NCBI RefSeq assembly: GCF_000497445.1 | Contig: NZ_CM002285.1 | Location: 2,178,091-2,242,090, forward strand | DNA: 64,000 nt | Direction of reading: 5' to 3' | Origin: Streptomyces roseochromogenus subsp. oscitans DS 12.976 | Lineage (GTDB): Bacteria; Actinomycetota; Actinomycetes; Streptomycetales; Streptomycetaceae | Shown here: positions 2,933 to 63,589 of the stretch, one piece after another | Position numbering within the stretch: the stretch's first letter is position 1 | Layout of the letters: each line of letters opens with the position of its first letter | Translations under genes and position numbers: made by a program | Notes under the pieces: generated by a model | The model's database searches: none | The model's input: the letters and a program-made list of their open reading frames with translations, nothing else | What the model was told of the DNA's origin: nothing

Positions 2933-2939
2933 CGGGTCA

Positions 2940-4329: not shown

Positions 4330-4338
4330 ACGGTGGAG

Positions 4339-4492: not shown

Positions 4493-4544
4493 GAGCAGTT
4501 GGTCGCTATAACGGGAGACCGTCGACACAGCCGGGAAGGCAGGC

Positions 4545-48125: not shown

Positions 48126-48159
48126 CGAAGCTGATCCACGAGGTGCTGGAGCGAACCGT

Positions 48160-49269
48160 ATGACCGTGTCCCCTGGCGTGCCCGAAACCGCCGCCGTCCC
48201 GTCCTTTCGCTGGCGCCGCGAGGACACCGTCCGAACCGCGGGCCTGCTGGCCGTGATCGTCGCTCTGCACGTGGTCGCCTTCGGGATTCTGTTCCTCCTC
48301 GTGGTCCCGCGTCACTATGAGGTCGGGTCCAAGGCGTTCGGGGTCGGCTTGGGCATCACGGCCTACACCCTCGGCATGCGGCACGCCTTCGACGCCGACC
48401 ACATCGCCGCGATCGACAACACCACCCGCAAGCTCATGGCCGACGGCAAGCGGCCCGTGTCGGTGGGCTTCTGGTTCGCGCTCGGGCACTCCAGCGTGGT
48501 GGTCGTCATGGCCGTGCTGGTGGCCGGGGGCGCCAAGCTGGCCGGCACCCTGATGAACGACGGCTCCCGGACCCACCAGGTCCTCGGCACCGTCGGCACC
48601 ACGGTCTCCGGCGGCTTCCTGTACCTCATCGCCGCTCTCAACCTCGTCGCCCTGTTCGGCATCCGGCGCGTCTTCAAGGCCATGCGCGCCGGACGCTACG
48701 ACGAGGCGGAACTGGAAGCCCACCTGGACTCGCGCGGCTTCATGAACCGCATCCTGGGCCGGCTCACCAAGTCGATCCGCCGACCGGGCCAGATGTTCCC
48801 TCTCGGCTTCGTCTTCGGCATCGGCTTCGACACCACGACCGAGGTCCTGCTCCTCGCCCTGGCCGGCAACGGCGCCGCAGCCGGCCTCCCCTGGTACGCG
48901 GTCCTGTGCCTGCCCCTCCTCTTCGCGGCCGGCATGAGCCTGTTCGACACCCTCGACGGCACGTTCATGAACTTCGCCTACCAGTGGGCGTTCTCGAACC
49001 CCGTTCGCAAGGTGTTCTACAACCTCACGATCACCGGGCTGTCCATCGCGGTGGCCTTCTTCGTCGGGACGATCGAACTGGTCGGCGTTCTGCATGACAA
49101 GCTCGGCTTGAGTGATGACATCACCGGCTGGATCGCGAGCCTGGACCTGGACAACGTCGGCTATGTGATCGTCGGCCTGTTCGTTGTCGTCTGGGCCGTG
49201 GCCATCGCCTACTGGCGTCTGGCCAAGGTGGAGGAGCGCTGGAGCGCCCGCGCCGCGGACGCCGGCTGA
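48160..49269 (+). CDS. Nickel/cobalt permease (NiCoT/HoxN family)
   Basis: The 369-residue protein has eight or so membrane spans and the NiCoT signatures: RHAFDADHIAAIDNTTRKL in the second span, FALGHSSVVV, FGIGFDTTTEVLLL and the LFDTLDGTFMNFAYQWAF segment. It imports Co2+ and/or Ni2+. A cobalamin riboswitch upstream makes cobalt for B12 synthesis the likely cargo. The ATG giving MTVSPGVPE follows GGAG; the much longer frame runs through the riboswitch and is not coding. Confidence 0.92.
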   Translation: MTVSPGVPETAAVPSFRWRREDTVRTAGLLAVIVALHVVAFGILFLLVVPRHYEVGSKAFGVGLGITAYTLGMRHAFDADHIAAIDNTTRKLMADGKRPVSVGFWFALGHSSVVVVMAVLVAGGAKLAGTLMNDGSRTHQVLGTVGTTVSGGFLYLIAALNLVALFGIRRVFKAMRAGRYDEAELEAHLDSRGFMNRILGRLTKSIRRPGQMFPLGFVFGIGFDTTTEVLLLALAGNGAAAGLPWYAVLCLPLLFAAGMSLFDTLDGTFMNFAYQWAFSNPVRKVFYNLTITGLSIAVAFFVGTIELVGVLHDKLGLSDDITGWIASLDLDNVGYVIVGLFVVVWAVAIAYWRLAKVEERWSARAADAG

Positions 49270-49302: not shown

Positions 49303-50241
49303 TCAGTTGTGCTCGAAGTGGCTGGGCCTGCCGTCGCGTTGGACAAGCCGGCCCAGCCGAGCCGCCGTCGCCCGGGGCACGAGCGTCCAGGTGCCGTCGG
49401 CGCGGTGGAGTGCGGCGGAGTGCCAGGGGGTGGTCCAGGCGTCGGGGGCGTCAAGGAGGCGGATACCGAATTTCGGTGCGCCGACGGGTTGCGGGTGGAT
49501 CGAGAGGCGCACGGCGTGGGGGTGGTGCTCGGCGATCAGGTCGCCCCAGGCGCGGCTGCGCTGGATGACGCCGTAGGCGCGTTGTCGGCAGGCGCGCTGC
49601 AGGGCGGAGCGGGTGCCGGTCCAGTCGGCGGTGTCCTCGACGAGGAAGCGCGTGATGCCCCGGTAGAGGGCGAGGGTCTGGTCGTCGGTACGGGCCTCGG
49701 CACGCAGAGCGTCCAGCGTGGGGGCGTGGCGGTCGTGGACGTGGGCGCGTTTCGTGTCGTGCGGGAGGTCGCCGAGGATGTCGCGCAGGTCGAAGACGGA
49801 CAGTCTGTCCAGGCCCAGTTGAGCTATCTGTATGCGTAGGTCGTCGGCGTACGCGTCGATGTGGTGGTCGGGGACGTGGATGAGGTCACCGAAGACGTGG
49901 CCGTCGGAGCAGATGATCACCCGGGCGCCGGGCGGGTAGATCCGCTCGATCTCGGTGCACAGGGTGTTCAGGAACGTCAGGGAGAGGCGTTCGCCCTGGT
50001 CGGGGAGGTGACCGAGGACCTTGGCGGGGTTGGGGGACTTACAGGGGAAGGCGGGCAGGGTGAGGACGACCGGGGCGCCCTCGTGTACGAAGTCGGCGAT
50101 GCGGCGCAGCTGATGGGGGAACGCTTCCGCAGGGGCGGGAACGGGAGCCGGATCGGTCGTGCGGTGATGCGGCAGGAGCAGGTTGAGGATCTCGGTGCCG
50201 ATGCGGGTGGGGAGGGCGTCTGACGCGGTCGTCAGGTGCAT
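49303..50241 (-). CDS. isnA: Isonitrile (isocyanide) synthase, PvcA/IsnA family
   Basis: The 312-residue protein matches the PvcA/DIT1 family: VVLTLPAFPCKSPNPAKVLGHLPD is the hallmark segment, followed by LTFLNTLCTEIERIYPPGARVIICSDGHVFGDLIHV and, late, VRLSIHPQPVGAPKFGIRLL. Known members turn the amino group of tyrosine or tryptophan into an isonitrile using the C2 carbon of ribulose-5-phosphate. The start ATG has AGGAGG six bases upstream. It is the last gene of an operon with a P450, an amidotransferase and an exporter. No PvcB-type Fe/2-oxoglutarate partner is present, which sets this locus apart from pvc and rhabduscin clusters. Confidence 0.9.
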   Translation of the reverse strand: MHLTTASDALPTRIGTEILNLLLPHHRTTDPAPVPAPAEAFPHQLRRIADFVHEGAPVVLTLPAFPCKSPNPAKVLGHLPDQGERLSLTFLNTLCTEIERIYPPGARVIICSDGHVFGDLIHVPDHHIDAYADDLRIQIAQLGLDRLSVFDLRDILGDLPHDTKRAHVHDRHAPTLDALRAEARTDDQTLALYRGITRFLVEDTADWTGTRSALQRACRQRAYGVIQRSRAWGDLIAEHHPHAVRLSIHPQPVGAPKFGIRLLDAPDAWTTPWHSAALHRADGTWTLVPRATAARLGRLVQRDGRPSHFEHN

Positions 50242-50381
50242 GTCGTTCCTCCTGGAGTACGAGGGCATGTCGACATGGCGCCGTGGCGGGAGTGCACGCC
50301 AGGCGCCAGTGGTCAGCGGGTGTGGGTCAGCCGAGGCCGGTCCGGCCGGTGTGGCCGGGCCCGGTCAGCGATACGTCGATG

Positions 50382-51632
50382 TCAGAAGCGTCGGTCGTAG
50401 CCCACGGGCAGGCTGTTCGTCCCGCGACCGAGGACGGCGGGGATCCACTCGATGTCCTCGACCCTGATGGCGAGATGCAGGCCGGGCAGCCTCGTGAGCA
50501 GGGTGCCCAGGGCGATCTGGAGTTCGGCGCGGGCGAGGGCTGCGCCGGGGCAGAAGTGGATGCCGTGGCCGAAGGCGAGGTGGGGGTTCGGGCTCCGGTC
50601 GAGGTCGAGGGTGTCGGGGTCGGGGAAGCGGCGCGGGTCACGGTTGGCGGCGCACAGGGACACGATCACGGAGTCGCCGGCCGGGACCTCGGTACCGTGC
50701 AGGTCGCTGTCCTTGTCGAAGAAGCGCCAGGTGGTCAGCTCGAAGGCACTGTCGTAACGGAGGAGTTCCTCGACCGCGCGCGGCAGCAGGTCCGGTTCGT
50801 CGCGGAGCCGGGCCAGTTGGTCCGGGTTACGGAAGAGCGCGATCAGAGCCGTGGTGATCTGGTTGGTGACCGGTTCCTGGCCCGCGACGAGGAGCTGGAA
50901 GATCATCGAGTCCAGCTCTTCCTGGGACAGTTCACGGCGGGCGTGGGCCATGACGAGGCGGCTGAGCAGGTCGTCGTCCCAGTGTTCGCGTTTGTGGGCG
51001 ACGACGTCGGCGATGTAGCTCTGCAGGCCTTGCAACCGCGCCTCGTACAGCGGGCGTCCCGGGTCGGTGGGGCCGACCGGCTGGACGACCTTGCCCCAGT
51101 CGCGGTCGAAGCGAGCCGCCAGATCCTGGGGAAGCCCGATGACCTCCGCGAGTACCTGGAAGGGGAAGTGGGCGGCGAAGCCGGTGACGAGGTCGGCCGG
51201 GCCGGTTTCGGGCAGGGTGTCGATCAGCGCATCCGCCAGTTCCTGGAACCGAGGGCGCAGGCTCTCGATACGACGTGGAGTGAAGGCGTCGGTGACGAAG
51301 CGCCGCATACGCGTGTGCTTGGGCGGGTCCTGGTGGAGCAGGTGCATCTGGAGCTGCGAGTGCTGCGGCTCGGGCATGATCGAGGCACGGGCGCGCCAGC
51401 GGTCGTTGCCGCGGTCGTGGTTCTTGCCCAGGCGCTCGTCGTTCAGCGCGGCGTGGGCGGCGTCGTAGCCGGTAACGAGCCAGGCTTGCACGCCGCTGGG
51501 GAAGAGGACGCGGTGGACCGGGCCGGCCTCGCGCATCTGCTCGTACAGGGGGTAGGGGTCGGCCTTGTAGGGGCAGCCCATCAGCGGGACCGGGTCGGGC
51601 AGCAGCTCGGCCGGCGGCTCTTGGACGGTCAT
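50382..51632 (-). CDS. Cytochrome P450 of the isonitrile cluster
   Basis: The 416-residue class I bacterial P450 has the heme motif FGHGIHFCPGAALAR with the ligand Cys at residue 361, and the EELLRYDSAFELTTWRF (ExxR region follows the K helix) segments. The I-helix reads LLVAGQEPVTNQI, where the usual acid/alcohol pair is E-P-V-T. It lies between the amidotransferase (12 bases) and isonitrile synthase genes. A role in oxidative tailoring, perhaps phenol coupling or desaturation of an isonitrile-bearing tyrosine amide, is inferred from context. Confidence 0.9.
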   Translation of the reverse strand: MTVQEPPAELLPDPVPLMGCPYKADPYPLYEQMREAGPVHRVLFPSGVQAWLVTGYDAAHAALNDERLGKNHDRGNDRWRARASIMPEPQHSQLQMHLLHQDPPKHTRMRRFVTDAFTPRRIESLRPRFQELADALIDTLPETGPADLVTGFAAHFPFQVLAEVIGLPQDLAARFDRDWGKVVQPVGPTDPGRPLYEARLQGLQSYIADVVAHKREHWDDDLLSRLVMAHARRELSQEELDSMIFQLLVAGQEPVTNQITTALIALFRNPDQLARLRDEPDLLPRAVEELLRYDSAFELTTWRFFDKDSDLHGTEVPAGDSVIVSLCAANRDPRRFPDPDTLDLDRSPNPHLAFGHGIHFCPGAALARAELQIALGTLLTRLPGLHLAIRVEDIEWIPAVLGRGTNSLPVGYDRRF

Positions 51633-51644
51633 GAACGGGGCTCC

Positions 51645-53471
51645 TCAGAGGGCGAGTTCGGGGCGGTGGTGGTCCAGCCACAGGGCGAGGTCGACGACGC
51701 GTTCGAGGCGCAGGCGGTGGCCCCACTCCAGCCGGTCGGGCGGGGTGTCCAGGCAGGGCTTGATCCGGGTCTCGTCGGCCAGGGCGCGGACCTGTTCGAG
51801 GGCGAGCGCGTCGCGGGCCATGTCCTGCAGGCCGCGGTTGTAGTCGGGGTGGTGGGTGGCCGGGTAGTGGTTCTTGGGCCGGTACAGGACCGAGTCCGGG
51901 GCGAGGCTCGTGCCGACGGCGCGCAACAGGCTTTTCTCGCGGCCGTCGAAGCTCTTCAGCGCCCAGGGCGTGGAGAAGGCGTACTCGACGAGCCGGTGGT
52001 CGCAGTACGGAACGCGCACCTCCAGCCCTTGGGCCATGCTCAGCCGGTCCTTGCGGTGGAGGAGTTGGCGCAGCCAGCGGGTGAGGGACAGGTGCTGCAT
52101 CTCGCGCTGCCGGTGCTCGGCGGGGCTCTCGCCGTCGATGTGCGGTACGGCGGCCAGCGCGCTGCGGTAGGTGTCGTCGCGGAACTCACCGATGCGCAGG
52201 TCGAGTTCGGGGTTGAGGGGCATGGCGGCCTCGTCGCCGGTGACCAGCAGCCAGGGGAAGGTCTGCGCGGCGAGCGCCTTGGGGTTGTGGAACCAGGGGT
52301 AGCCGCCGAACACCTCGTCGGCCGCCTCGCCGGACAGGGCGACGGTGGAGTGCCGCCGTATCTCGCCGAACAGCAGATAAAGAGAGGTGTCCATGTCGCC
52401 CACCCCGATCGGCGAGTCGCGCGCCACGACGACCGCCTTGCGGTGCTCGGGGTCGAGCAGAGCACGCGGGTCGAGGACGACGGTGCTGTGGTCGGTGCCG
52501 ATGAAGGCTCCGGCCTCGGTGGCGTACGGGGTGTCGTGGCCGGTACGCAGGACGTCGCCGGTGAACTGTTCGGCCTGGTCGCTGTAGTCGACGGCGTACG
52601 AACGGATCCTCGCCTCCGCGCCCTCCCGCAGCCGTAGTTCGTCGGCGAGCAGCGCGGTCAGGACGGTGGAGTCGATGCCGCCGGAGAGCAGGCTGCACAG
52701 GGGGACGTCGGCCTCCAGCTGGCTGCGGGCCGCCGCGCCGACCAGCGCACGGATCCGCTCCACCGTCGTTTCCCGGTCGTCGCCGTGGTCCCTGGCCTCA
52801 AGCTGCCAGTAGCGGCGTTCGCGGATGCCGTCCCGGTCCAGGACCAGCAGCCCCCCGGGTTCAACCTCCCGTACCCCGGACCACACGGTCGGCCCGGTGT
52901 TGAACAGCAGGCTGTACGCCTCCCGCAGCCCGTCGGCAGCCACCCGGGGCCGGATCTCAGGGTGGGCGAACAGTGCCTTGGGCTCGGAGGCGAAGGCCAG
53001 GCCGCCGTCGACGAGCGCCCAGAACAACGGCTTCACGCCGAGCCGGTCACGCACCAGCAGCAGCCGCTGCGCCCGCTCGTCCCAGACGGCGAAGGCGAAC
53101 ATGCCCTCCAGGTGCTCGGCGACGTCCTCGCCCCACTCCGCGTAGGCCCGCAGCACCACCTCGGTGTCGCTGCGCGTGCGGAACACATGGCCCCGGCCAC
53201 ACAGCTCGGCCCGGAGTGCGTGGTGGTTGTAGACCTCGCCGCTGTAGGTGAGCACGATGTCCGGCTGCTCGGGACGATCCGGCATCGGCTGTACGCCGCC
53301 TTCGAGGTCGATGACGGCCAGGCGGCGATGGCCGATCGCTGCGCGTTCGCCGAGCCAGATCCCTCCGGCGTCGGGGCCGCGGGGCGTGAGGGTGGCGGTC
53401 ATGGCCTCGATGACCGGGGCCTGGGTGCGGGCGTCGTGGTGGAAGCTCGCCCAGCCGGTGATTCCGCACAT
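51645..53471 (-). CDS. Asparagine synthetase-like glutamine amidotransferase
   Basis: The 608-residue protein has both AsnB domains. Cys2 in MCGITGW is the glutaminase nucleophile, with GHRRLAVIDLEGG, SGEVYNHHALR and RSDTEVVLRAY of the N-terminal domain. The synthetase domain has the PP-loop SLLSGGIDST and SGEAADEVFGGYPWF. Such enzymes activate a carboxylate with ATP and convert it to an amide. Family changes (SGEVYN for NGEIYN, GEAADE for GEGADE) and cluster context suggest a natural-product amide rather than asparagine. AAGGAG precedes the ATG. An upstream extension was rejected as a shadow of the MFS gene. Confidence 0.88.
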   Translation of the reverse strand: MCGITGWASFHHDARTQAPVIEAMTATLTPRGPDAGGIWLGERAAIGHRRLAVIDLEGGVQPMPDRPEQPDIVLTYSGEVYNHHALRAELCGRGHVFRTRSDTEVVLRAYAEWGEDVAEHLEGMFAFAVWDERAQRLLLVRDRLGVKPLFWALVDGGLAFASEPKALFAHPEIRPRVAADGLREAYSLLFNTGPTVWSGVREVEPGGLLVLDRDGIRERRYWQLEARDHGDDRETTVERIRALVGAAARSQLEADVPLCSLLSGGIDSTVLTALLADELRLREGAEARIRSYAVDYSDQAEQFTGDVLRTGHDTPYATEAGAFIGTDHSTVVLDPRALLDPEHRKAVVVARDSPIGVGDMDTSLYLLFGEIRRHSTVALSGEAADEVFGGYPWFHNPKALAAQTFPWLLVTGDEAAMPLNPELDLRIGEFRDDTYRSALAAVPHIDGESPAEHRQREMQHLSLTRWLRQLLHRKDRLSMAQGLEVRVPYCDHRLVEYAFSTPWALKSFDGREKSLLRAVGTSLAPDSVLYRPKNHYPATHHPDYNRGLQDMARDALALEQVRALADETRIKPCLDTPPDRLEWGHRLRLERVVDLALWLDHHRPELAL

Positions 53472-53487
53472 ACGGGTGACTCCTTGC

Positions 53488-54942
53488 TCAACGATGGGCG
53501 GCGGACGCCGCGTCGGTGGTCTTCTCCGGCCCGGCGGCCGGGCGTCGGGCGGGCACTGCCAGCAGAGGTACGGCGAGGCAAGCGGCGGTGGCGGCCACGG
53601 CGAGCCCGGCGTGCACGCCGTCGGCAGGTCCGGCAAGGCCCCAGGCGGCGGTGGCCAGGGCTGGGCCCAGGGTGAAGCCGAGGCTGCGGGCGAGCTGGAC
53701 GGTCGAGCCGACAGTCGCGGTCCGCTCCGGCGGGGCGGCACCCATGACCAGGACCTGGGTCGGGCCGCCGTTCAGGCCCATGCCGATACCGGCCAGCGCC
53801 AGCCGCCAGGCGACGTCCAGCGGTGACCAGTCGCCGCCCAGCGGAACGAGGAGGAGCAGGCCGGCGGCGGTGAGCGCGGCGCCGGTGACCGCTGTCAGCC
53901 GGGCGCCGACGGGGGTCCCCCCGCTCGAGCGGAGCCGGGAGTGGGGGAGGTCGGCGAGACGTCCGCCGAGCGGTCCGGCCAGGCCCATGCCGAGCGGGAA
54001 GGCGAGCACGGTGAGCCCGGTGGTCGTGGCGCTGACGCCGTCGTCGCGCTGGAGGTGCAGGGCGACGACGTAGTGCATGGCGGCGAAACCGGCCGCAAGC
54101 GCCAGTACCGCCGCGTGTGCCCGCAACAGCCCCGGGACACCCAGCACGCTGGTCACCGGACGCCCGCCCGGACCGCGCAGCCACCACCACAGCGGCGGTG
54201 CTGCTGCGAGCGCGAGCACCAGCCACGCCGGACGGTCCGAGGCCAGGGTCAGCGCCAGCAGCAGCGCCGTCACACCGGCGGCCACCAGGAGGGCGTCTGC
54301 TGCCGAGCGCCGGTCGGGCCGGCGCAGGGCGCCGTCCGGCGGCATCGCACGCCAGGCCACCACCAGGGCGAGCACGCAGAAGGGGATCTTGACGAGGAAG
54401 ACGGCGTGCCAGCCCAGATGGTCCAGGAGCAGCCCGCCCACGGCCGGCCCGGTCACCGCCCCCAGCGGGCCCAGGGTCGCGGGCACGCTCATCGCCCGCC
54501 CTCGCTTTCCGGGCCGTACAGAACGCAGCGCGAGGACCGGCATCAGCACGAACAGCGCCGCCCCGAACGCGCCCTGCGCAATGCGGGCGGCTATCAGCCA
54601 GGCAGCCCAGGGAGCGGCGGCCGCCAGAGCGCTGCACAGGGCGAAGCCGGCGGTCGCGGCGAGTACGGCGGAGCGCGTCCCCACGCCGTCCAGCCAGCGT
54701 CCGACGGGCAACAGCAGTGCGACGACGGGAAGCTGGTAGCCCAGCACGGCCCACTGGGCGGTCGCTGCAGAGACGTGCAGGCCATCGGCGATGTCCGCCA
54801 GAGCCACGTTGACGATGTTCATGTCGAGCATCGCCACGAACGACAGCATGCCCGCCACGGCCACCAGCAGCCAGCGGTCCTCGCCGGCAGCGCCGTCGGG
54901 TATGTGCCCGGGCTGTTCCGCGCCGGGTCTGTGGTCTGTCAC
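53488..54942 (-). CDS. MFS efflux transporter (DHA2-like) of the isonitrile cluster
   Basis: The 484-residue protein has about 14 spans and DHA2 motifs: MLSFVAMLDMNIVNVALADIA at the first span, GYQLPVVALLLPVGRWLD after it, and ARIAQGAFGAALFVLMPVLAL. It probably exports the cluster product. The GTG giving VTDHRPG has AGGGG at good distance; a GTG five codons earlier is the alternative. A 40-base interspersed repeat is embedded in frame and encodes the loop peptide PHSRLRSSGGTP. It is the first gene of the biosynthetic operon, 54 bases after a SigC-type promoter. Confidence 0.87.
   Translation of the reverse strand: MTDHRPGAEQPGHIPDGAAGEDRWLLVAVAGMLSFVAMLDMNIVNVALADIADGLHVSAATAQWAVLGYQLPVVALLLPVGRWLDGVGTRSAVLAATAGFALCSALAAAAPWAAWLIAARIAQGAFGAALFVLMPVLALRSVRPGKRGRAMSVPATLGPLGAVTGPAVGGLLLDHLGWHAVFLVKIPFCVLALVVAWRAMPPDGALRRPDRRSAADALLVAAGVTALLLALTLASDRPAWLVLALAAAPPLWWWLRGPGGRPVTSVLGVPGLLRAHAAVLALAAGFAAMHYVVALHLQRDDGVSATTTGLTVLAFPLGMGLAGPLGGRLADLPHSRLRSSGGTPVGARLTAVTGAALTAAGLLLLVPLGGDWSPLDVAWRLALAGIGMGLNGGPTQVLVMGAAPPERTATVGSTVQLARSLGFTLGPALATAAWGLAGPADGVHAGLAVAATAACLAVPLLAVPARRPAAGPEKTTDAASAAHR
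53911..53950. repeat. Interspersed GC-rich repeat inside the MFS gene
   Basis: GGGGGTCCCCCCGCTCGAG, then GGGAGTGGGGGAGG, shares its opening and closing blocks with the intergenic copy at 7329-7380. In the MFS frame it adds about 13 residues in a cytoplasmic loop without breaking the gene. Confidence 0.7.
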
Positions 54943-54995
54943 CTTTCCGCCCCTCACCTTCGTGGGCGGGCTGCCGGAAGGCAGCCTCGTCCCAC

Positions 54996-55024
54996 AAGTC
55001 GGGAGGGATCGCGCGTGAGTTCCC
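54996..55024 (-). promoter_or_regulatory. ECF (SigC-type) promoter of the isonitrile operon
   Basis: On the minus strand GGGAAC (55024-55019), a 17-base spacer and CGACTT (55001-54996) form an ECF-like promoter. The -10 ends 54 bases before the MFS start. The same elements and spacing occur upstream of the ABC importer and copper operons. Confidence 0.7.
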
Positions 55025-55074
55025 GGACCTGTCCCAAAAAGCGTGACGGAAAGGCTGGAAGTTCCCCACCGTGT

Positions 55075-55890
55075 TCACGCGCCGGTGTGCGTCTCCACTG
55101 CCGCAGCCGGCTCCGCGTCGGCGGGTGCCCGGTGGTCGAAGGCGATCAAGGGATCCCCGGTGAGGGGGTGGTCGACCACGGCCGCGCGCACCCCGAACAC
55201 CGCCGCCATCAGGGCGGGCGTGAGGACCCCGCGCGGCCGGCCGGAGGCGACGACGGATCCGGCGTGCAGGACGTGGAGGCGGTCGCAGACGGAGGCAGCC
55301 GCGTTGAGGTCGTGCAGCGACACCAGCGTGGTACGGCGCTGGGTACGCAGCAGGGCGAGCAGTTCGACCTGGTGGCGGATGTCGAGGTGATTGGTCGGCT
55401 CGTCGAGGACCAGGACGTCGGGGTCCTGGGCGAAGGCCCTGGCGAGCAGGACGCGTTGGCGTTCCCCTCCGGACAGGGCCGTGAACCGGCGACCCGCTTG
55501 GTCGTCCATGCCGACGTCGGCCAAGGCGCGGGCGACGATGTCCCGGTCGGCGGCGTCCTCACCGGCGAAGGCTCGCTTGTAGGGGGTGCGGCCCATGGCG
55601 ACGACCTCGCGCACGCTCAGCTCGAAGTCGCTCCCGCGCTCCTGCGGGAGGGCCGCCACGTGTCGCGCTGACTGGACCGCGCTCAGCTCGCGCAGATCGG
55701 TGCCGGCCAGAAGTACTCGCCCGGCGGTGGGCTTCAGATGCCGGTAGACGGTGCGCAGGAGCGTGGACTTGCCGCTGCCGTTCGGCCCGACCAGTCCGGT
55801 GATCTCGCCCTCGGCGGCGATCAGGTGGGCGCCCGCGACGACCGTACGGCCGGCGTAGGCGACGTGCAGGTCCTCGATGTCGATCCTCAA
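55075..55890 (-). CDS. Metallophore/B12-type ABC transporter ATPase
   Basis: The 271-residue FecE/BtuD-type ATPase has Walker A GPNGSGKSTLLRTVYRHLKP, the signature LSGGERQRVLLARAFAQ, Walker B VLVLDEPTNHLD and the SLHDLNAA switch. It powers uptake of the ligand captured by the binding protein two genes upstream. The start overlaps the permease stop as ATGA. The C-terminal 20 residues are Ala/Glu-rich. Confidence 0.92.
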   Translation of the reverse strand: MRIDIEDLHVAYAGRTVVAGAHLIAAEGEITGLVGPNGSGKSTLLRTVYRHLKPTAGRVLLAGTDLRELSAVQSARHVAALPQERGSDFELSVREVVAMGRTPYKRAFAGEDAADRDIVARALADVGMDDQAGRRFTALSGGERQRVLLARAFAQDPDVLVLDEPTNHLDIRHQVELLALLRTQRRTTLVSLHDLNAAASVCDRLHVLHAGSVVASGRPRGVLTPALMAAVFGVRAAVVDHPLTGDPLIAFDHRAPADAEPAAAVETHTGA

Positions 55891-56957
55891 CTGCCGCTCC
55901 CCAGACGCCGGTCCAGCAGATACAGCAGGGCCGGAGCCCCGAGCAGCGAAGTGACCACGCCCACCGGCAGCTCCTGCGTGTCCATGGCCGTACGGCAGAC
56001 GATGTCGACCACCACCAGCAGCACCGCCCCGAACAGGGCCGAGACCGGCAACAGGCGCCGGTGGTCACCGCCGACGACCAGGCGGCAGACGTGCGGCACC
56101 ATCAGCGCGACAAAGGCGATCGCGCCGGAGACGGCGACCAGGACGCCGGTCAGCACGCTGGTGACGGTGAACAGTTCGCGGCGCAGCCGGGTGACGTCGA
56201 TGCCGAGGCCGGCCGCCGTCTCGTCGCCCATCAGCAGGGCGTTCAGTGCGCGGGCGCGCGCCTGCAGCCAGAGCAGAGCGATGGGCACGGCGACGGCGGG
56301 GACCGCGAGCATCTGCCAGTTCGCTCCGCTGAGGCTGCCCATGAGCCAGAACAGCACGCTGTGCGTCTGCTGCTCGTCACCGGCCTGCAGCACCAGGTAG
56401 CTGGTGAAGCCGGAGAGGAACTGGCCGATCGCCACCCCGGCCAGCACCAGCCTGAGCGGTGCGAAGCCCCCGCCGCGCCGAGCGACCGCCCACACCAGCG
56501 CGAAGGTGGCCAGGGCCCCGGCGAAGGCCGCGCCGGACAGGCCAAGACCCAGCGCCCCGCCCGCCCCGACACCGAGCACGATCGCGGCGACCGCACCGAG
56601 GGAGGCTCCGTTGGAGATCCCCAGCAGATACGGGTCCGCCAGCGGGTTGCGCACCAGCGCCTGTACGGCCGTACCGACGACACCGAGCCCGGCGCCGACG
56701 AGAGCGGCGAGCAGGGCGCGCGGAACGCGAAGTTGCCAGATGATCAAGTCGTTCGTGCCGGGCCGCGGCGCCTCACCGGACAGTCTGCGCCACACCACGC
56801 CCCACACCTCGCCGGGCGGAATGGACGTCGAGCCCCAGGCCACCGCGGCCGTCAGCGCGGCCAGCAGCGCCACCGCGAGGACCACCGCCAGCGGTGTCGC
56901 GGGCAGACTGCGCTCTTCCGAAGCCGACGCTTTCCGGCGCACCAGCGTGGAGGGCAT
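55887..56957 (-). CDS. FecCD-family ABC transporter permease
   Basis: The 356-residue permease has about ten spans and FecCD motifs: IIWQLRVPRALLAALVGAGLGVVGTAVQALVRNPLADPYLLGISNGASLGA is present in sequence, and the coupling GDETAAGLGIDVTRLRRE loop contacts the ATPase. FecCD permeases import siderophores, heme, B12 or other metal complexes as homodimers. The ATG lies two bases after the binding-protein stop. The longer frame upstream is a shadow. Confidence 0.92.
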   Translation of the reverse strand: MPSTLVRRKASASEERSLPATPLAVVLAVALLAALTAAVAWGSTSIPPGEVWGVVWRRLSGEAPRPGTNDLIIWQLRVPRALLAALVGAGLGVVGTAVQALVRNPLADPYLLGISNGASLGAVAAIVLGVGAGGALGLGLSGAAFAGALATFALVWAVARRGGGFAPLRLVLAGVAIGQFLSGFTSYLVLQAGDEQQTHSVLFWLMGSLSGANWQMLAVPAVAVPIALLWLQARARALNALLMGDETAAGLGIDVTRLRRELFTVTSVLTGVLVAVSGAIAFVALMVPHVCRLVVGGDHRRLLPVSALFGAVLLVVVDIVCRTAMDTQELPVGVVTSLLGAPALLYLLDRRLGSGS

Positions 56958-56959
56958 GG

Positions 56960-58039
56960 TCAGCCGACCTTGCCCGGGTAGAGAGCCTTGGCGATCTCCT
57001 CGACCGTGTCGGCGTTCTCGACTCCCGCGATGGTCGTCCGTTCGGAGCCGACGCGCAGGAGGTGGCCTTCCTTCACTGCCTTGAGGCCCTTGGTCGCCGC
57101 GTTGGACTTCAGCCACTGTTCGGCCTCGTCGAACGCCTTCTTGTTCGCCGCCTCGCTGCCCCGGTCGCGGACCCCGAGCTGGATCCAGTCGGGGTTCTTG
57201 GCGATCACGTCCTCCCAGCCGACCTGCTTGTAGTCGCCGTCGCAGTCCGCGAAGACGTTGCGGGCCCCGGCCAAGGTGATCACCGCGTTGGCGACCTGGC
57301 GGTTGCAAGTGACGGAGGGCTGCTTGGTGCCGGCGTCGTAGTCGAAGAAGAAGTACGTCGGCCGCTTGTTCTCCGCCGTGCCGCCGACCGCCTTCTGGAC
57401 GGCGTCCACCTTCTCCTTCATCGCGGTGACGAGTTCCTTCGCCCGCGCGCTCGTGCCGGTGACCGCGCCGAGGGAGGTGATGTCGGCCTCGACGGCGGAC
57501 AGGTCGGTGACGGGGTTCTTGCTCTGTGCGGCGCAGGCGGTGGACTTGAGGTAGATGTGCCTGATTCCGGCGGCCTGGAACTCCTCCGCCGTCGGCGCTT
57601 CCCCCATTCCTCCGCCGCCCATGCCGCCCATGGAGGCGAAGGTGTCGATGTACAGGTCGGCGCCGGAGCCGAGCAGCTTCTCCTTGGGGATGACGCTCTG
57701 GCTGAGTACCTTCACCTCCTGCGCCTGCGTGTCGAGCGTGCCGGGCAGGGTGCCCTTGCCCGGCGGAAAGCCGGTGCCGATCACCTTGTCGCCGGCGCCG
57801 AGGCGCAGCAGCAGTTCGAGGCTGGAGGCGTTGCTGGTGACGATCTTCTTCGGGGCGGCGGAGAAAGTGGTCTTGGCGCCCATGCAGTCGGTGACGGAGA
57901 CCGGGTAGGCGCCCGAGACGGAGTCCTCGGCCTTCCCCGCGCCCTCGCTCGCCGTGTTCCTCTCCCCGGCGCCGCAGCCCGCCGCCAGCAAGCCGCCGAG
58001 CACAACGGCCGCCGCAGAGCCCCACACACGAGAACGCAT
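56960..58039 (-). CDS. Metal-complex-binding lipoprotein (FepB/BtuF type)
   Basis: The 359-residue protein has a lipoprotein signal (RSRVWGSAAAVVLGGLLAAGC) and a TroA-like helical-backbone receptor fold, beginning VSVTDCMGAKTTFSAAPKKIVTSNASSLELLLRLGAGDKVIG. A Met/Gly-rich insert SMGGMGGGGMGEAP lies near residue 160 and could face the ligand. It has extra cysteines (CMGAK, TACAAQ, TCNRQ, ADCDGD). It is the first gene of the importer operon. The ligand may be the metal-loaded isonitrile made by the neighbouring operon; that is inferred. GGGAG precedes the ATG. Confidence 0.88.
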   Translation of the reverse strand: MRSRVWGSAAAVVLGGLLAAGCGAGERNTASEGAGKAEDSVSGAYPVSVTDCMGAKTTFSAAPKKIVTSNASSLELLLRLGAGDKVIGTGFPPGKGTLPGTLDTQAQEVKVLSQSVIPKEKLLGSGADLYIDTFASMGGMGGGGMGEAPTAEEFQAAGIRHIYLKSTACAAQSKNPVTDLSAVEADITSLGAVTGTSARAKELVTAMKEKVDAVQKAVGGTAENKRPTYFFFDYDAGTKQPSVTCNRQVANAVITLAGARNVFADCDGDYKQVGWEDVIAKNPDWIQLGVRDRGSEAANKKAFDEAEQWLKSNAATKGLKAVKEGHLLRVGSERTTIAGVENADTVEEIAKALYPGKVG

Positions 58040-58094
58040 CGAACAACTCCCGGATCCACTCGGTACGCGGGCGAACCTCCGTCACCCGCTCCAG

Positions 58095-58123
58095 AAGTCG
58101 GAGCGAACGCCACGCGAGTTCCC
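58095..58123 (-). promoter_or_regulatory. ECF (SigC-type) promoter of the ABC importer operon
   Basis: GGGAAC (58123-58118), 17 bases, then CGACTT (58100-58095) on the minus strand; the -10 ends 56 bases before the binding-protein start. A second GGGAAC lies ten bases further upstream. Confidence 0.7.
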
Positions 58124-58177
58124 GTGAGTTCCCGGAAAGTCGGCGGCACGTCTCAGGAGAGCCGTTCCCAGGTGCTG

Positions 58178-58226
58178 ACGAGGGTGTCGGTGCCGGGGTC
58201 TTCCCGGTCGGCACCGGCACCCTCGT
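58178..58226 (-). terminator. Strong terminator after the ECF sigma gene
   Basis: ACGAGGGTGTCGGTGCCG (58178-58195) pairs with CGGCACCGGCACCCTCGT (58209-58226) through 18 positions with a single G-U wobble. It starts 46 bases past the sigma gene stop and separates it from the importer promoter. Confidence 0.85.
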
Positions 58227-58271
58227 GGAGCATCAGGCCGCCAGCGCGGCGGGCCGCTCCTCCCTCACTGC

Positions 58272-58880
58272 CTAATCGGCGTGGGAGGTGCCCCCACCGT
58301 CGAGCAGGTCCATCAGGGTCGCCCGGGCGCGGGCCACGCGGGAGCGGACCGCGCCGACCGGGCAGTCGCTGACCTCGGCGGCCTCCGCATAGGGCAGGCC
58401 GAGCAGCTGCGTGAGGACGAACGCCTCCCGCCGGTCATCGGGCAGTGAGGCCAGCAGATCGAGCAGGGCGATGCCGTCGTCGAAACCGGGCAGGTCGCAC
58501 GGCTGGGCCAGCTCGATGGCCACACGCCAGTCCGGTACGTCGGACTGACGTGGCCGGGCTGCGGCGTACCGGTAGCTGTCGATCACCGCGCGGCGGGCGA
58601 TGGACAGCAGCCAGGCCCGGGCCGAGGAACGCCCCTCGAACCGGTGCAGGCTGCCGAGTGCCCGCAGGAACGTGTCCTGTGCCAGATCGTCCGCAGCCTG
58701 GGGATCGCCGCACAGGTGGGTGACGTAGCGCTGGACGTCGCGGTGCAGGGCGCCCACGAACTGCTCGACCGCGTCCGCGTCACCGCTTCGGGCGGCCAGC
58801 GCCCATGCGGTGATCGATTCGTCGAGTGCTGCCGCTTTGTCGCTTTTGGCGCGCGAGGCGGGCAGGGCAGAGGTAATCAC
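58272..58880 (-). CDS. sigC: ECF sigma factor, SigC-like
   Basis: The 202-residue sigma factor has region 2 (QRYVTHLCGDPQAADDLAQDTFLRALGSLHRFEGRSSARAWLLSIARR) and region 4 (LPDDRREAFVLTQLLGLPYAEAAEVSDCPVGAVRSRVARAR). These closely resemble Mycobacterium tuberculosis SigC, which is linked to copper acquisition. Like SigC it has no adjacent anti-sigma gene. The GTG start has AGAAGGA six bases upstream; a TTG seven codons earlier is less likely. The last codons (GGGTSHAD) come from a GTGGGGGCACCTCCCACG stretch that resembles an interspersed repeat. It sits between the importer and copper operons, whose promoters share an ECF-type motif. Confidence 0.85.
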   Translation of the reverse strand: MITSALPASRAKSDKAAALDESITAWALAARSGDADAVEQFVGALHRDVQRYVTHLCGDPQAADDLAQDTFLRALGSLHRFEGRSSARAWLLSIARRAVIDSYRYAAARPRQSDVPDWRVAIELAQPCDLPGFDDGIALLDLLASLPDDRREAFVLTQLLGLPYAEAAEVSDCPVGAVRSRVARARATLMDLLDGGGTSHAD

Positions 58881-59051
58881 CTGGAGTCCTTCTAGGGTCA
58901 ACCGTGATCCGGGCCAGGGCGCGCCGAAGCGCGCGGTCCGGTGAAAGTGGGAGAGACGGCCCTACGTCGTCGCTGTGGCGCTACAGCGCCTGTGCGGTCG
59001 TACGGCCGTGGCCCGAGGCGCAGACGGGCAGCCTCGGGAAACCAGCTGTCC

Positions 59052-59702
59052 TCAGACGACAGCCGTCCCCGCGGGCGGACCCCGAGAAGTGATCGCGTGG
59101 CCGAGAAGGAGCAGACGCGGCGCCCGGTCCGAGCGACGGCGCCGCAGGTGGACGCGCGGGCGGTCCGGGGTGACGGGCGAAGCGAACAGGAGTCGCAGTG
59201 GCGCCGCCAGCCATCCGGCCACCGCCCGCAGGATCCGGAAGGCGGCCTTCTCGCCGTACGCCAGCCACAACCCGCACAGCAGCGCGGCGAGCAGGTGAGC
59301 GGCGAGCATGCCGAACGACGACGAGCCGCCGTCCATGGAGTGCCCCATGTGTCCCGCGTGGTCCATGTGGCTCATGCCCGTGTGCCCCATGCCCATGGAG
59401 CCCATGGAGCCCATGCCGCTCGCGTCCACGGAGGCCGAACCGCCGGATGCCGACTGCGCGTAGGAGAACGCCTCGTGCAGCACGGCCTGGGCGGCGACCA
59501 CGGCCGTCACGATCAACGGCAGCCCGCGCTCACGCACCGCCAGACACCAGCCGACGGCACCGGTCACGGCCACGCCTGCGGCCAACGCCCACGCGGGCAC
59601 GTCGCTCCCGGACATCAGGACGTGGCCCAGGGCGGCGAGCAGCACACAGACGGCCGCGAACACCGCAGCCCGTATCGTGCGAGCACACCACCCTGCAGTC
59701 AT
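59052..59702 (-). CDS. Met/His-rich membrane protein, probable copper-related
   Basis: The 216-residue protein has four or five hydrophobic helices. Between the third and fourth is an extracytoplasmic loop GMGSMGSMGMGHTGMSHMDH, continuing AGHMGHSMDGG, which is a classic methionine/histidine copper-binding segment. The C-terminal 45 residues are Arg-rich. It lies after the PCu(A)C-like and CopA genes on the same strand. A role in copper binding or transfer across the membrane is inferred. ATG is preceded by GGATGAGG. Confidence 0.78.
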   Translation of the reverse strand: MTAGWCARTIRAAVFAAVCVLLAALGHVLMSGSDVPAWALAAGVAVTGAVGWCLAVRERGLPLIVTAVVAAQAVLHEAFSYAQSASGGSASVDASGMGSMGSMGMGHTGMSHMDHAGHMGHSMDGGSSSFGMLAAHLLAALLCGLWLAYGEKAAFRILRAVAGWLAAPLRLLFASPVTPDRPRVHLRRRRSDRAPRLLLLGHAITSRGPPAGTAVV

Positions 59703-59808
59703 GGCGCCTCATCCTCGCATCCGGGCTTCGGCCGTCATGCGTGGGTACGGAAATCCACCGGGCACCACACTCAATACCCAGCCTGTGATCCAGACCACGA
59801 CGCCACAC

Positions 59809-59837
59809 CGGAACTGACGAGGGTTCCTGCCCGACAT
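59809..59837 (+). promoter_or_regulatory. Possible fourth SigC-type promoter, plus strand (antisense)
   Basis: CGGAAC (59809-59814), 17 bases, then CGACAT (59832-59837) matches the shared promoter pattern but points into the 3' end of the PCu(A)C-like gene from the opposite strand. It could give an antisense RNA or be chance. Confidence 0.3.
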
Positions 59838-59855
59838 CTCTTCGGGGGCAGCTGA

Positions 59856-60377
59856 TCAGGAGACTCCGTCGCCGGAGCGGATCACCACCGCGATCGTCCT
59901 GACCGGCGCGCTGCGCTCGAAGTGCAGCGTGAACGGCACCAGGTCACCCGCCTGCCACCCCGCCCGCGCCCGCAGGGTCAGGTCCACACCGTGCGGGGAC
60001 ATGGACAGCTCGCCACCGGCGGGGACGGTGACCGATTTCACGTCGGCCTTGTACGCGGCCCCGCTGCCGGTGGTGCCGTGACGGCTGAGGGTGATCTCGC
60101 CGCGCGTGTCGGTGGACGTCACCTTCACCAGCCGGTCGTCCGCGCCGCCGAGGTTGGAGACGTCGAAGAACGCCGCGGTCTCCGTGCTGCCGCCGTAGGG
60201 CAGGAAGACCCGTCCGGACGTGACGGCGATCCGCGCCGGGCTACCCGCCTTCCCGGCCCCGACCCAGGTGGTCAGGCCACCCAGGGCGAGACTGCACGCG
60301 GCCACGGGCACGGCCGCGGCGAGCAGCGCGTCGGTCAGCCGGCGGCGCGACGGCCGCCAGAGGTTCTGCACGGTCAT
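59856..60377 (-). CDS. PCu(A)C-like periplasmic copper chaperone, diverged
   Basis: The 173-residue protein has an N-terminal membrane anchor or signal (LTDALLAAAVPVAACSLALGGL) and a PCu(A)C beta-barrel: VFLPYGGSTETAAFFDVSNLGGADDRLVKVTSTDTRGEITLSRHG and VTVPAGGELSMSPHGVDLTLRA. In classic members several Met and His ligands bind Cu(I); here only isolated His and Met remain (SRHG, LSMSPHG), so copper affinity may be changed. The ATG overlaps the CopA stop as ATGA, placing it firmly in the copper operon. Confidence 0.82.
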   Translation of the reverse strand: MTVQNLWRPSRRRLTDALLAAAVPVAACSLALGGLTTWVGAGKAGSPARIAVTSGRVFLPYGGSTETAAFFDVSNLGGADDRLVKVTSTDTRGEITLSRHGTTGSGAAYKADVKSVTVPAGGELSMSPHGVDLTLRARAGWQAGDLVPFTLHFERSAPVRTIAVVIRSGDGVS

Positions 60378-62629
60378 CGGGTACGCCTCCGGGCGGACGA
60401 GGGCTGCCAGGCGCGCAGCCGCAGGCTGTTGCCGACCACCAGCAGCGAGCTGGCCGACATCGCGGCCGCGGCGAGCATCGGGTTGAGCAGGCCGACCATG
60501 GCGAGCGGCACGGTGACGGCGTTGTAGCCGAACGCCCACACCAGGTTGGAGCGGATGGTGCCCAGCGTGCGCCGGGCCAGCCGGACCGCGTCCGCGAGGG
60601 CCTCGATGTCGCCGCGCACCAGCGTCACGTCGGCGGCTCCGATGGCCACGTCGGTGCCGCTGCCCATGGCGATGCCGAGGTCGGCACCGGCGAGGGCGGC
60701 GGCGTCGTTGACACCGTCGCCGATGACCGCGACCCGGTAGCCCTGCTCCTGCAACTCCCGTACGAGGCCGGCCTTTCCCTCGGGGGTGCAGCGGGCACGC
60801 ACCTCGTCGATGCCCAGGCCCGACGCCACGGCCCGCGCGGGCGCTTCCCGGTCACCCGTGGCGAGCACCGGTCGGACGCCGAGCCGCCGCAGGCGGTCCA
60901 CGGCACGGTAGCTTCCGGGGCGTACGACGTCACCGACCTCGATCAGGGCCTCGGCCACGCCGTCGACGCGGACCAGGACGGGTGTGTGGGCGGCGGCCTC
61001 AGCCCTGGACATGGCGTCCGCGAGGACCGCGGGCAAGTCATCGTCCGGCACGAGGACTTCGACCAGGCGGCCTTCGACCCGACCGCGAACCCCCTGCCCC
61101 GGTGTGGCGCCGAACCCGGTCACGTCCGGCGTCGGCTGTCCCTGCGCGGCCCGCCCGGCATACGCGGCGATGGCCCGGCCCAGCGGATGCTCCGAGCCCC
61201 GCTCGACCGCGCCCGCCAGCCGCAACGCCGCTTCCTTCCCGAGCCCGCCGGGCACAGCGGTGACCCGGGCGACGCTCATGCGGCCGGACGTGAGGGTGCC
61301 GGTCTTGTCCAATACGACCGCGTCGATGTGCTGCAGCCCCTCCAGAGCCTGCGGTCCGCTGACCAGAACGCCCAACTGGGCGCCCCGGCCGGTCGCGGCC
61401 ATCAGCGCGGTCGGGGTCGCCAGGCCGAGCGCGCAGGGACAGGCGACGACGAGGACCGCCACGCACGCGGTGACGGCCGCCTGCGGGTCGGCTCCCGCAC
61501 CGAGCCAGAAGCCGAGCGCCGTGACGGCCAGCGCCAGCACGACGGGTACGAAGACACCGGCCACCGAGTCGGCCAGCCGCTGCGCCCGCGCCTTGCCCGC
61601 CTGCGCCTCGGTGACCAGGCGGGTGATCCGGGCGAGCTGGGTGTCGGCGCCGACGGCGGTGGCCCGTACGAGCAACAGGCCGCCGGTGTTGACGGCCCCG
61701 CCGACCACGGCCGAACCCGCACCCACCTCAACCGGCTCGCTCTCACCGGTAACCAGGGACAGGTCCACGGCTGAGGTGCCCTCCACGACCTCGCCGTCGG
61801 TGGCGACCCTCTCTCCGGGCCGTACGACGAAGACCTGTCCGGCACCCAACTGCTCGATAGGAAGCAGCCGTTCGGTGCCGTCCTCGCGGACGGAGACTTC
61901 CTTGGCGGCGAGCTGGGCGAGCGACCTCAGCGCCGCCCCCGTCCCGCGCCGGGCACGCGCTTCCAGGAAGCGGCCGGCCAGGACGAACAGCGGTACGCCC
62001 ACAGCCGCTTCGAGGTAGATGTGCGCGGCGCCGTCCGAGGCCGAGGGCACGAGGGTGAACGGCATCCGCATCCCGGGCTCACCGGCACCGCCGAGCAAGA
62101 GCGCGTACACCGACCAGGAGAAAGAGGCCACCACGCCCAGCGACACCAGGGTGTCCATGGTCGCCGCCGAGTGCCGCAGCCCGCGTACCGCCCGTAGATG
62201 GAAGGGAAGGGCACCCCACACCGCGACGGGCGCCGCGAGCATGAAGCACAGCCACTGCCAGTTCCGGAACTGAAGGCCGGGCACCATCGACAGCACCAGC
62301 ACGGGCAGCGCGAGCAGCGCGGTGATCACCAGCCGGTCGCGCTCCTGCCGGGCGCCCTCGCCCTCGGCGTCGTCCTCGCGCTTCTGCTTCTTGGGCGGCT
62401 CAGGCAGGGCAGCCGTATAACCCGCCTTCTCGACGGCCGCGACGAGGTCCGCCGGACTGATCTCCGCCGGATGGCTCACCCGGGCGCGGCCGGTGGCCAG
62501 ATTGACGGTCGCCGTGACCCCGTCCAGCTTGCCGAGCTTCTTCTCGACCCGCCTCACGCAGGCCGCACAGGTCATACCGCCGACGGTCAGGTCGGTCGCG
62601 ACGAGGGTGCCTACGGATTCCGCTCCCAT
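60374..62629 (-). CDS. copA: Copper-translocating P1B-type ATPase CopA
   Basis: The 751-residue ATPase begins with one HMA domain carrying the CxxC motif GGMTCAACVRRVE, then eight membrane spans with the metal-selective CPC motif in VACPCALGLATP. The phosphorylation site DKTGTLTSGR, the TGES motif in SLVTGESEPVEVG, the HP motif SEHPLGRAI and the hinge GDGVNDAAALAGADLGIAMG are all present. It exports Cu(I) from the cytoplasm. Its ATG overlaps the stop of the small upstream gene by one base (TGATG), and its stop overlaps the PCu(A)C-like start. Confidence 0.94.
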   Translation of the reverse strand: MGAESVGTLVATDLTVGGMTCAACVRRVEKKLGKLDGVTATVNLATGRARVSHPAEISPADLVAAVEKAGYTAALPEPPKKQKREDDAEGEGARQERDRLVITALLALPVLVLSMVPGLQFRNWQWLCFMLAAPVAVWGALPFHLRAVRGLRHSAATMDTLVSLGVVASFSWSVYALLLGGAGEPGMRMPFTLVPSASDGAAHIYLEAAVGVPLFVLAGRFLEARARRGTGAALRSLAQLAAKEVSVREDGTERLLPIEQLGAGQVFVVRPGERVATDGEVVEGTSAVDLSLVTGESEPVEVGAGSAVVGGAVNTGGLLLVRATAVGADTQLARITRLVTEAQAGKARAQRLADSVAGVFVPVVLALAVTALGFWLGAGADPQAAVTACVAVLVVACPCALGLATPTALMAATGRGAQLGVLVSGPQALEGLQHIDAVVLDKTGTLTSGRMSVARVTAVPGGLGKEAALRLAGAVERGSEHPLGRAIAAYAGRAAQGQPTPDVTGFGATPGQGVRGRVEGRLVEVLVPDDDLPAVLADAMSRAEAAAHTPVLVRVDGVAEALIEVGDVVRPGSYRAVDRLRRLGVRPVLATGDREAPARAVASGLGIDEVRARCTPEGKAGLVRELQEQGYRVAVIGDGVNDAAALAGADLGIAMGSGTDVAIGAADVTLVRGDIEALADAVRLARRTLGTIRSNLVWAFGYNAVTVPLAMVGLLNPMLAAAAMSASSLLVVGNSLRLRAWQPSSARRRTR

Positions 62630-62871
62630 CAGTGGCCTCCCCCGTGCATGTCGCCCATGTCGTCGACGCCTCCGCCTGCACTGCCGTCGCCGCCAGGCCG
62701 TACGCCGGTGCCGTGCATACCGGGGGCGACGGGTCCGGCGGCGGCACCGACGGCGTACGACACCGCGAACATCAGCGCCAGCAGGAGAAGGAACCCGCAG
62801 AGGGCAGGTGGTGGGATCAGCTTCGGCAGCACCGCACCCGCGTTGGAGGAGGATTGCCGGGATTCGTCCAT
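62629..62871 (-). CDS. Small membrane protein with Met/His tail, first gene of the copper operon
   Basis: The 80-residue protein has one hydrophobic helix (ALCGFLLLLALMFAVSYAVGAAAG) and a C-terminal tail with GMHGTG and DDMGDMHGGGH, which can bind copper outside the membrane. It is translationally coupled to copA. Such small proteins often precede copper ATPases in Streptomyces. It starts 59 bases after a SigC-type promoter. Confidence 0.78.
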   Translation of the reverse strand: MDESRQSSSNAGAVLPKLIPPPALCGFLLLLALMFAVSYAVGAAAGPVAPGMHGTGVRPGGDGSAGGGVDDMGDMHGGGH

Positions 62872-62929
62872 CAGCCGCGTCTCCGATCACGTCGTACGGC
62901 GCCGGTCTGATCGAGCCGTACCGCTTCAG

Positions 62930-62958
62930 GAGTCGGGCCACCGGACGCCCGAGTTCCG
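62930..62958 (-). promoter_or_regulatory. ECF (SigC-type) promoter of the copper operon
   Basis: CGGAAC (62958-62953), 17 bases, then CGACTC (62935-62930) on the minus strand; the -10 ends 59 bases before the first gene. It agrees with the two other promoters in the GGAAC and CGACT cores and in spacing. Confidence 0.65.
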
Positions 62959-63144: not shown

Positions 63145-63589
63145 ATGTCCATCGAACCGCCCATCACGACGGATCGACGCGGTCCACCGCGATCTGCACC
63201 CGAGCGGAACCGGCCGCCTGTACAGCGAGTTCGCCGCGAGCTGGCTGTGGGTGATCACGGGCGGAGGACTGGTGCCGTTGTTCAGCCGGCGGCGCGCCCC
63301 GCCGAACGGTGCGCGGCACCACGGGACGACGGCGCGCCCTGACCCTGCACGGCACGGTGGGCGCGTGGGCGGCAGCCACGGGGACACGGCTCCATGACGG
63401 GCATGGACATGGGCGGCAAGCGGCATCGGCGCACACCCCGGCATCCTGTTCGGCCTCGCCCCGCAGATCGCGCTGGCCGTCCTCGCCTACTGCGTCCCGT
63501 TGCTCGGCATCCCGCTCGCCGCCTCCCTCGCCATGGGCATCCTCATCGGCGCCATCGCCCGCCGCCGCACCGGACGCCCACCCGCCTGA
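63145..63589 (+). pseudogene. Broken PepSY-domain membrane protein gene
   Basis: Pieces of a PepSY-associated (iron/copper-regulated) membrane protein appear in different plus-strand frames. RIDAVHRDLHPSGTGRLYSE with FAASWLWVITGGGLV is the first, LTLHGTVGAWAAATG the second, and AHPGILFGLAPQIALAVLA up to the stop is the C-terminal span. At least two frameshifts and a large internal deletion separate them. It is divergent from the copper operon, where such genes are common. Confidence 0.7.

Follow-up and report, generated by a model that had tools for sequence, protein, structure and literature searches.

Gene content of the locus

The window analysed here is a 64,000 bp stretch of DNA from Streptomyces roseochromogenus subsp. 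oscitans DS 12.976 (NCBI RefSeq assembly GCF_000497445.1, contig NZ_CM002285.1, positions 2,178,091 to 2,242,090), a species with a Streptomyces-type chromosome (genome of 9.78 Mb). Its minus strand carries four gene groups, all oriented in the same direction, which very probably form a compact copper-starvation regulon in which a SigC-type extracytoplasmic function (ECF) sigma factor reads one promoter in front of isonitrile, import and copper operons. In order of transcription, the groups consist of a gene for a Met/His-rich small protein followed by copA and a PCuAC gene; a membrane protein gene followed by sigC; an ATP-binding cassette (ABC) importer; and the genes mfs, asnB, P450 and pvcA. 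The motif GGAAC-N17-CGACT stands 5′ of the first, third and fourth groups, and the sigma factor, its candidate sensor and the targets are all found within 14 kb.

The copper operon begins with an 80-amino-acid protein (62629..62871; this and all genes of the four groups are on the minus strand) with a single hydrophobic stretch and an end rich in Met and His; the motif also precedes comparable small proteins in loci L059 and L072. The next gene, copA (60374..62629), encodes a copper-type P1B ATPase (TIGR01511, 496 bits with a cut-off of 397) whose top NCBIfam models are copper-exporting ATPases, and the last encodes a PCuAC-type copper chaperone (59856..60377; PF04314, 7.5e-17). The second group has a gene for a membrane protein, termed here the RGPP protein (59052..59702), directly upstream of sigC (58272..58880; GTG start, with TTG 58901 possible). 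A strong hairpin is predicted in the interval between sigC and the importer promoter (58170..58245, minus strand; RNA fold −43.3 kcal/mol, z −4.52). The importer comprises the substrate-binding lipoprotein AbcS (56960..58039; PF01497), the FecCD-type permease AbcP (55887..56957; PF01032) and the ATPase AbcA (55075..55890; PF00005). The isonitrile operon encodes a major facilitator type exporter (mfs, 53488..54942; PF07690), an AsnB-like glutamine-dependent amidotransferase (51645..53471; PF00733, PF13537), a cytochrome P450 (50382..51632; PF00067) and the isonitrile synthase PvcA (49303..50241; PF05141, 1.4e-76).

A shared promoter-like motif

An original prediction, made from the letters of the window alone, placed a SigC-type ECF promoter before these three operons, and its particulars hold. 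The motif has exactly three matches in the window, all on the minus strand and all with a spacer of exactly 17: one at 54997..55023 before the isonitrile operon, one at 58096..58122 before the importer operon and one at 62931..62957 before the copper operon. The last base of the −10 element is 54, 56 and 59 bases, respectively, from the first start codon (GTG 54942, ATG 58039 and ATG 62871). Dinucleotide shuffles of the window have a mean of 0.15 matches, and none of 100 reaches three.

For the spacer comparison, 80 named loci with a gene for a PvcA relative were used (the best 80 of 92); the spacer and upstream-site counts refer to these named records only. GGAAC-Nn-CGACT occurs 137 times with n = 17 and 0–10 times with each other n from 8 to 26. 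Within the 400 bp before the gene, an exact site is present for abcS in 61 of the 64 loci that could be evaluated (66 have abcS), for copA in 13 of 20 (23 have copA) and for the gene that opens the biosynthetic operon in 36 of 80; random 400-bp windows from the same loci contain one in 323 of 20000 cases. By these comparisons the putative importer promoter is nearly universal among the relatives and the biosynthetic operon is often without an exact site. Such operons may have a variant site or be reached by read-through from the importer operon.

Positions were surveyed in 120 loci, a set that includes duplicate records (such as L095/L143, L097/L151, L098/L160 and L101/L171), as does the count of sigC partners given below. 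The 201 sites comprise 82 assigned to abcS, 45 to mfs, 12 to copA, 16 to other homologues of window genes and 46 to none. Of the 82 abcS sites, 58 are 55–59 bases before the start, 36 of these at 57, and 51–53 bases is the commonest distance for mfs. Eleven of the 46 unassigned sites lie close to mfs on the other strand, each followed by a short open frame of roughly 71–76 codons; the one translated, in L094, reads as a CopZ-like copper chaperone. A wider consensus, cgGGAACTC-N14-cCGACTnCTGG, was drawn from 136 distinct sites. Two gene orders exist among the relatives, and in the second (L104–L112) the abcS site turns with abcS wherever that gene is within the stretch. A second FecCD-type ABC set, with permease and ATPase ∼50–55% identical, lies on the opposite strand immediately downstream of pvcA in some of the relatives (L096–L098, L151, L154, L155, L160, L170, L174, L204 and L211).

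SigC and the motif across actinomycetes

The original prediction also held that an ECF sigma gene resembling mycobacterial SigC lies among the operons. The best NCBIfam model is indeed SigC, at 167.9 bits, and the two best PDB matches, 2o7g and 2o8x, are the solved domains of Mycobacterium tuberculosis SigC. As the score is below the cut-off of 219 for the equivalog NF007231, that model places the window sigma factor in a sister lineage and does not rate it an ortholog. When 246 genomes were searched class-wide, 40 SigC-clade matches came from outside Streptomyces, set apart from other ECF sigma factors by a gap in score (E values of 1.9e-41 or better, with the rest at 3.4e-29 or worse). Within Streptomyces, 73 of 101 genomes have a SigC-clade gene and 28 do not, a genome being taken as negative when its best E value in the sigma search is above 1e-25. 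The extended motif GGAACT-N15-CCGACT has a mean of 3.79 matches per genome with SigC and 1.54 without it; the reversed control has 4.00 and 3.54. PvcA is encoded in 28 of the 101 genomes; 20 of the 28, including the genome of the window, have sigC and pvcA together in one stretch no longer than 20 kb.

The same spacing recurs in the 40 SigC loci outside Streptomyces, where GGAAC-Nn-CGACT has 21 matches with n = 17 and 0–6 with other spacers, and the CGACC variant has 23 with n = 17 and 1–10 otherwise. Of 15 hand-picked sites inspected in the first 20 of these loci, those whose products were scanned precede PCuAC, DUF1775/YcnI, CopC, PepSY_TM, HMA and zf-HC2 proteins; one site precedes sigC itself (L230), and some have no recognisable copper gene behind them. 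Among mycobacteria searched with copA, an ATPase gene adjoins sigC in 4 of 10 genomes, and in three of these four loci GGAAC-N17-CGACT lies 34–35 bases before the ATPase ATG. The fourth locus (L277/L226) has no exact site there, and the CGACC variant precedes a nearby HMA-domain gene. The sites in L224, L227 and L228 had been considered as antisense matches inside sigC; this was ruled out by their position 34–35 bases before the ATPase ATG.

Judged by eye, five sites in 30 Streptomyces motif loci precede an apparent PepSY_TM-family protein. The window has a PepSY_TM-like gene fragment on the plus strand (63161–63298), with 50% identity over 47 residues to a protein of L225, and it is the sole match in the genome. 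The genome also contains a decayed copy of the regulon (L113, G000 C1 9003000-9022999; also L022) with an RGPP gene, the N17 motif and a sigC paralogue that is 83% identical; only abcS fragments follow, and a copA fragment precedes.

A conserved membrane protein beside sigC

The statement in the original prediction that the sigma gene has no anti-sigma gene stands for recognised families; the RGPP protein has no Pfam match and no recognised anti-sigma domain. It does not stand for the neighbourhood as such: an RGPP protein or a relative is encoded upstream and on the same strand in 61 of 66 sigC matches, the 66 being those with at least 1500 bases upstream (25 of 91 with less were left out). 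Four of the 61 (L188, L193, L195 and L197) are partial matches 1.0–1.5 kb upstream, and the five sigC matches lacking the partner are L185, L189, L191, L200 and L201. All 18 fetched Streptomyces loci that have sigC and no pvcA in the stretch (L114–L131) have the partner. The spread of the family is that seen in the fetched loci. Its members are predicted to have four helices plus one at the C-terminus (AF2, mean predicted local distance difference test score, pLDDT, 71.7), and the stretch that joins helices 3 and 4 varies but is usually rich in Met and His. Residues invariant in 29 aligned members include H27, H136 and the tail R207-G-P-P; entry to the alignment required RGPP within the last 45 residues, and eight odd partner matches were set aside; a set-aside relative (L129) has RAPP in place of RGPP. 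Without this filter, four relatives encoded next to sigC outside Streptomyces were found, and these too have RGPP at their end. L144, L150, L162 and L184 have additional RGPP-family genes in the same stretches, at a distance from sigC.

Partners differ in the 40 SigC loci outside Streptomyces, some of which are on short contigs. The RGPP protein adjoins sigC in 10; a zf-HC2-type membrane protein is encoded within about 2.5 kb of sigC in 15; a zf-HC2 domain shares one open frame with SigC in six, all mycobacterial; and neither is found in nine, four of them mycobacterial. A FastTree phylogeny of 48 SigC sequences (midpoint root) joins the zf-HC2-partnered, fused and partnerless forms in one clade. 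Outside it fall 16 RGPP-partnered sequences together with the Kitasatospora-type L191 and L194, which carry the RGPP label on the tree though no partner was found beside their sigC. Homology of the RGPP and zf-HC2 proteins was rejected (hhalign probability 0.4%), and in a Foldseek search of the PDB the RGPP model had no match at E ≤ 10. A structure predicted for a natural zf-HC2–SigC fusion, intended for docking, was unreadable (mean pLDDT 49.7).

In L229, L244–L248 and P0001–P0120, mycobacterial SigC is the C-terminal part of a frame with a zf-HC2/DUF2275 membrane domain, and some of these fusion proteins carry the database name SigC. In L242, a gene divergent from sigC (2630–5023, minus strand) encodes a fusion of a zf-HC2 membrane domain with CopC and CopD, and the N17 motif is 8 bases before its start.

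In our reading of these neighbourhoods, SigC sigma factors usually have a membrane partner; one kind of partner has given way to another in the course of evolution, and in Streptomyces this would be the RGPP protein, a candidate copper sensor and SigC inhibitor. A larger proposal, at a little less than an even chance, is that RGPP proteins represent a new family of copper-sensing regulators, unrelated to zf-HC2/DUF2275, in which copper is sensed by a Met/His stretch outside the membrane and SigC is held by an RGPP tail in the cytoplasm; the copper regulon would then be an old actinomycete one, and the SigC of tuberculosis bacteria, for which no partner is known, a derived form.

The isonitrile pathway

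A PvcA-type isonitrile pathway had been foreseen, and this is upheld; it is not a nonribosomal peptide synthetase (NRPS) pathway. The window PvcA resembles solved isonitrile synthases (PDB 3e59, PvcA, 1.5e-80). Hazimycin is a tyrosine-derived di-isonitrile with carboxamides and a biaryl bond. The combination of PvcA, P450 and amidotransferase presumably fits this structure and the hazimycin gene set. Matsuda et al. in 2024 (J. Antibiot. 77:228) reportedly described hazimycin biosynthesis and hazimycins as chalkophores. The isonitrile operon looks like this chalkophore class, and since hazimycins have, by that account, been published as chalkophores, the role of this cluster type is taken as already known.

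In two Archangium myxobacteria (L148 and L153), PvcA (79%) and P450 (86–87%) are close to the Streptomyces proteins, with neither sigC nor an exact motif in the stretch; transfer between phyla is possible. A plus-strand gene of the window that is convergent with pvcA (47962–49269) is, by eye, what we take to be a nickel/cobalt permease-like protein.

Proposed regulon and alternative explanations

It is proposed that RNA polymerase with SigC would recognise GGAAC-N17-CGACT before mfs–asnB–P450–pvcA, the importer operon and the small protein–copA–PCuAC operon. With plentiful copper, the tail of the RGPP protein would hold SigC inactive, which is the least certain step; as copper falls, the Met/His stretch of the partner would empty, SigC would be freed and the three promoters would fire. 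PvcA would then form a tyrosine isonitrile, and the amidotransferase and P450 would convert it to a hazimycin-like copper-binding di-isonitrile. The MFS protein might export this product and the ABC system take up its copper complex again, with the ATPase and PCuAC passing copper to cuproproteins.

Sequence comparison supports the promoter, its sigma factor and the gene set. The predicted SigC-type control of the three operons is borne out comparatively by the peak at spacer 17, the near-fixed distance to abcS, motif counts that track SigC, and motifs before copper genes near other SigC genes, including the ATPase gene in three of the four mycobacterial loci. It is weaker for the biosynthetic operon of the relatives, where 36 of 80 have an exact site. 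That the copper complex is imported, and what the partner does, are features that we infer.

Several observations weigh against the proposed regulon. The bare motif shows no genome-wide enrichment, with 25 matches in comparison with 43 for the reversed pattern, and was therefore dropped as evidence; the original prediction had named a motif equally common at random sites as grounds for its own rejection, and taken literally this is what was found. Across the SigC-positive genomes even the extended motif does not outnumber its reversed control (3.79 and 4.00), and only 15 hand-selected clade-A PvcA genomes exceed that control (6.13 and 3.93, relatedness and genome size being ignored). Neither an exact nor a relaxed site precedes the biosynthetic operon in 38 of 80 relatives or copA in 4 of 20, and of nine loci with the second gene order only one has an exact site for copA on the strand of that gene. 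We infer, moreover, both the small product and the direction in which the genes are regulated. A GC-position test of all 25 genome sites, inside genes or not, did not cleanly separate the window sites and was not used. As a putative promoter the motif is backed by where it stands, by its extended sequence and by comparison across genomes, and not by bare frequency.

Other ECF sigma factors also use GGAA-type −35 elements, and 31 matches to the window sigma factor were found in the host genome (G000), so that another ECF might read the shared sites and the nearby sigC be incidental; the tracking of SigC presence by motif counts, and the clustering of sites at the 40 non-Streptomyces SigC loci and beside mycobacterial sigC, render this most unlikely. 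CopA-type ATPases are usually exporters, as the first NCBIfam models of the window protein are, and the regulon could in principle answer copper excess, with the isonitrile as a copper buffer. Such a response is unlikely, given the FecCD-type import system and PCuAC in the regulon and the action of M. tuberculosis SigC in copper starvation (PMC7924339; PMC9600254). The isonitrile might instead be an antibiotic with a secondary link to copper genes, as isonitriles are antimicrobial (PMC11290450). A promoter common to isonitrile, importer and copper genes makes this quite improbable, and hazimycins are reportedly chalkophores.

The role of the RGPP protein is more evenly balanced. That it is a copper-binding membrane protein of the same pathway and not an anti-sigma factor, with SigC controlled by its own conformation, by proteolysis or by transcription, is nearly an even proposition. 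The missing anti-sigma domain, the negligible similarity to zf-HC2 and the extra copies away from sigC agree with it, and a conformational mode of control has been suggested for the M. tuberculosis sigma factor (PMC8999054). The position upstream of nearly all sigC genes, including the 18 loci with no pvcA in the stretch, argues for a role tied to SigC, as does the RGPP protein's taking the place of the zf-HC2 partner, with RGPP-partnered SigC outside the clade of zf-HC2-partnered, fused and partnerless forms.

Earlier work has described a link of SigC with copper, isonitriles that act as chalkophores and fusions with DUF2275. What appears to be new, with priority not established, is the shared SigC control and the RGPP partner that corrects the view of a sigma gene with no anti-sigma gene. 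In the open-access papers searched, a set that does not include the hazimycin paper, no title dealt with SigC control of a PvcA-type cluster, with a GGAAC-N17-CGACT promoter across actinomycetes or with the RGPP protein. If true, sensor, sigma factor, chalkophore synthesis, export, import and copper delivery would be under one promoter code, a copper counterpart of siderophore regulons. The code would serve to find copper-acquisition genes and isonitrile clusters in actinomycetes, and copper starvation would be the predicted condition that wakes such clusters. A Streptomyces with sigma factor, candidate sensor and targets inside 14 kb makes the question directly testable.

Comparison with known systems

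The window cluster, relatives of which occur in Kitasatospora, presumably shares PvcA, P450 and amidotransferase with the hazimycin cluster attributed to Matsuda et al. 2024. The SF2768 diisonitrile chalkophore of Streptomyces thioluteus is likewise a Streptomyces isonitrile that mediates copper uptake, but is made by an NRPS pathway (PMC9600254). ECF36 members fused to DUF2275 anti-sigma factors are also known (PMC8999054). As in those, a membrane protein of about four helices is paired with or fused to SigC; the window partner differs in having no zinc finger and no homology to them, and its conserved tail is C-terminal.

The closest functional parallel is the regulon of M. tuberculosis SigC (ECF36), a related sigma factor that drives ctpB and the nrp isonitrile operon from almost identical promoter elements and protects from copper starvation (PMC7924339); sigC and chalkophore mutants both suffer when copper is scarce (PMC7924339; PMC9600254). 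Isonitrile synthesis and a copper ATPase are targets there and predicted targets in the window, and three other mycobacterial genomes have the window motif before the ATPase gene beside sigC. The isonitrile is an NRPS lipopeptide in M. tuberculosis, whereas the window pathway is of the PvcA type. Mycobacterial SigC lies within the zf-HC2 clade, whereas the window SigC falls outside it, and no dedicated partner is known for the M. tuberculosis protein, whereas the window sigC has the RGPP protein beside it.

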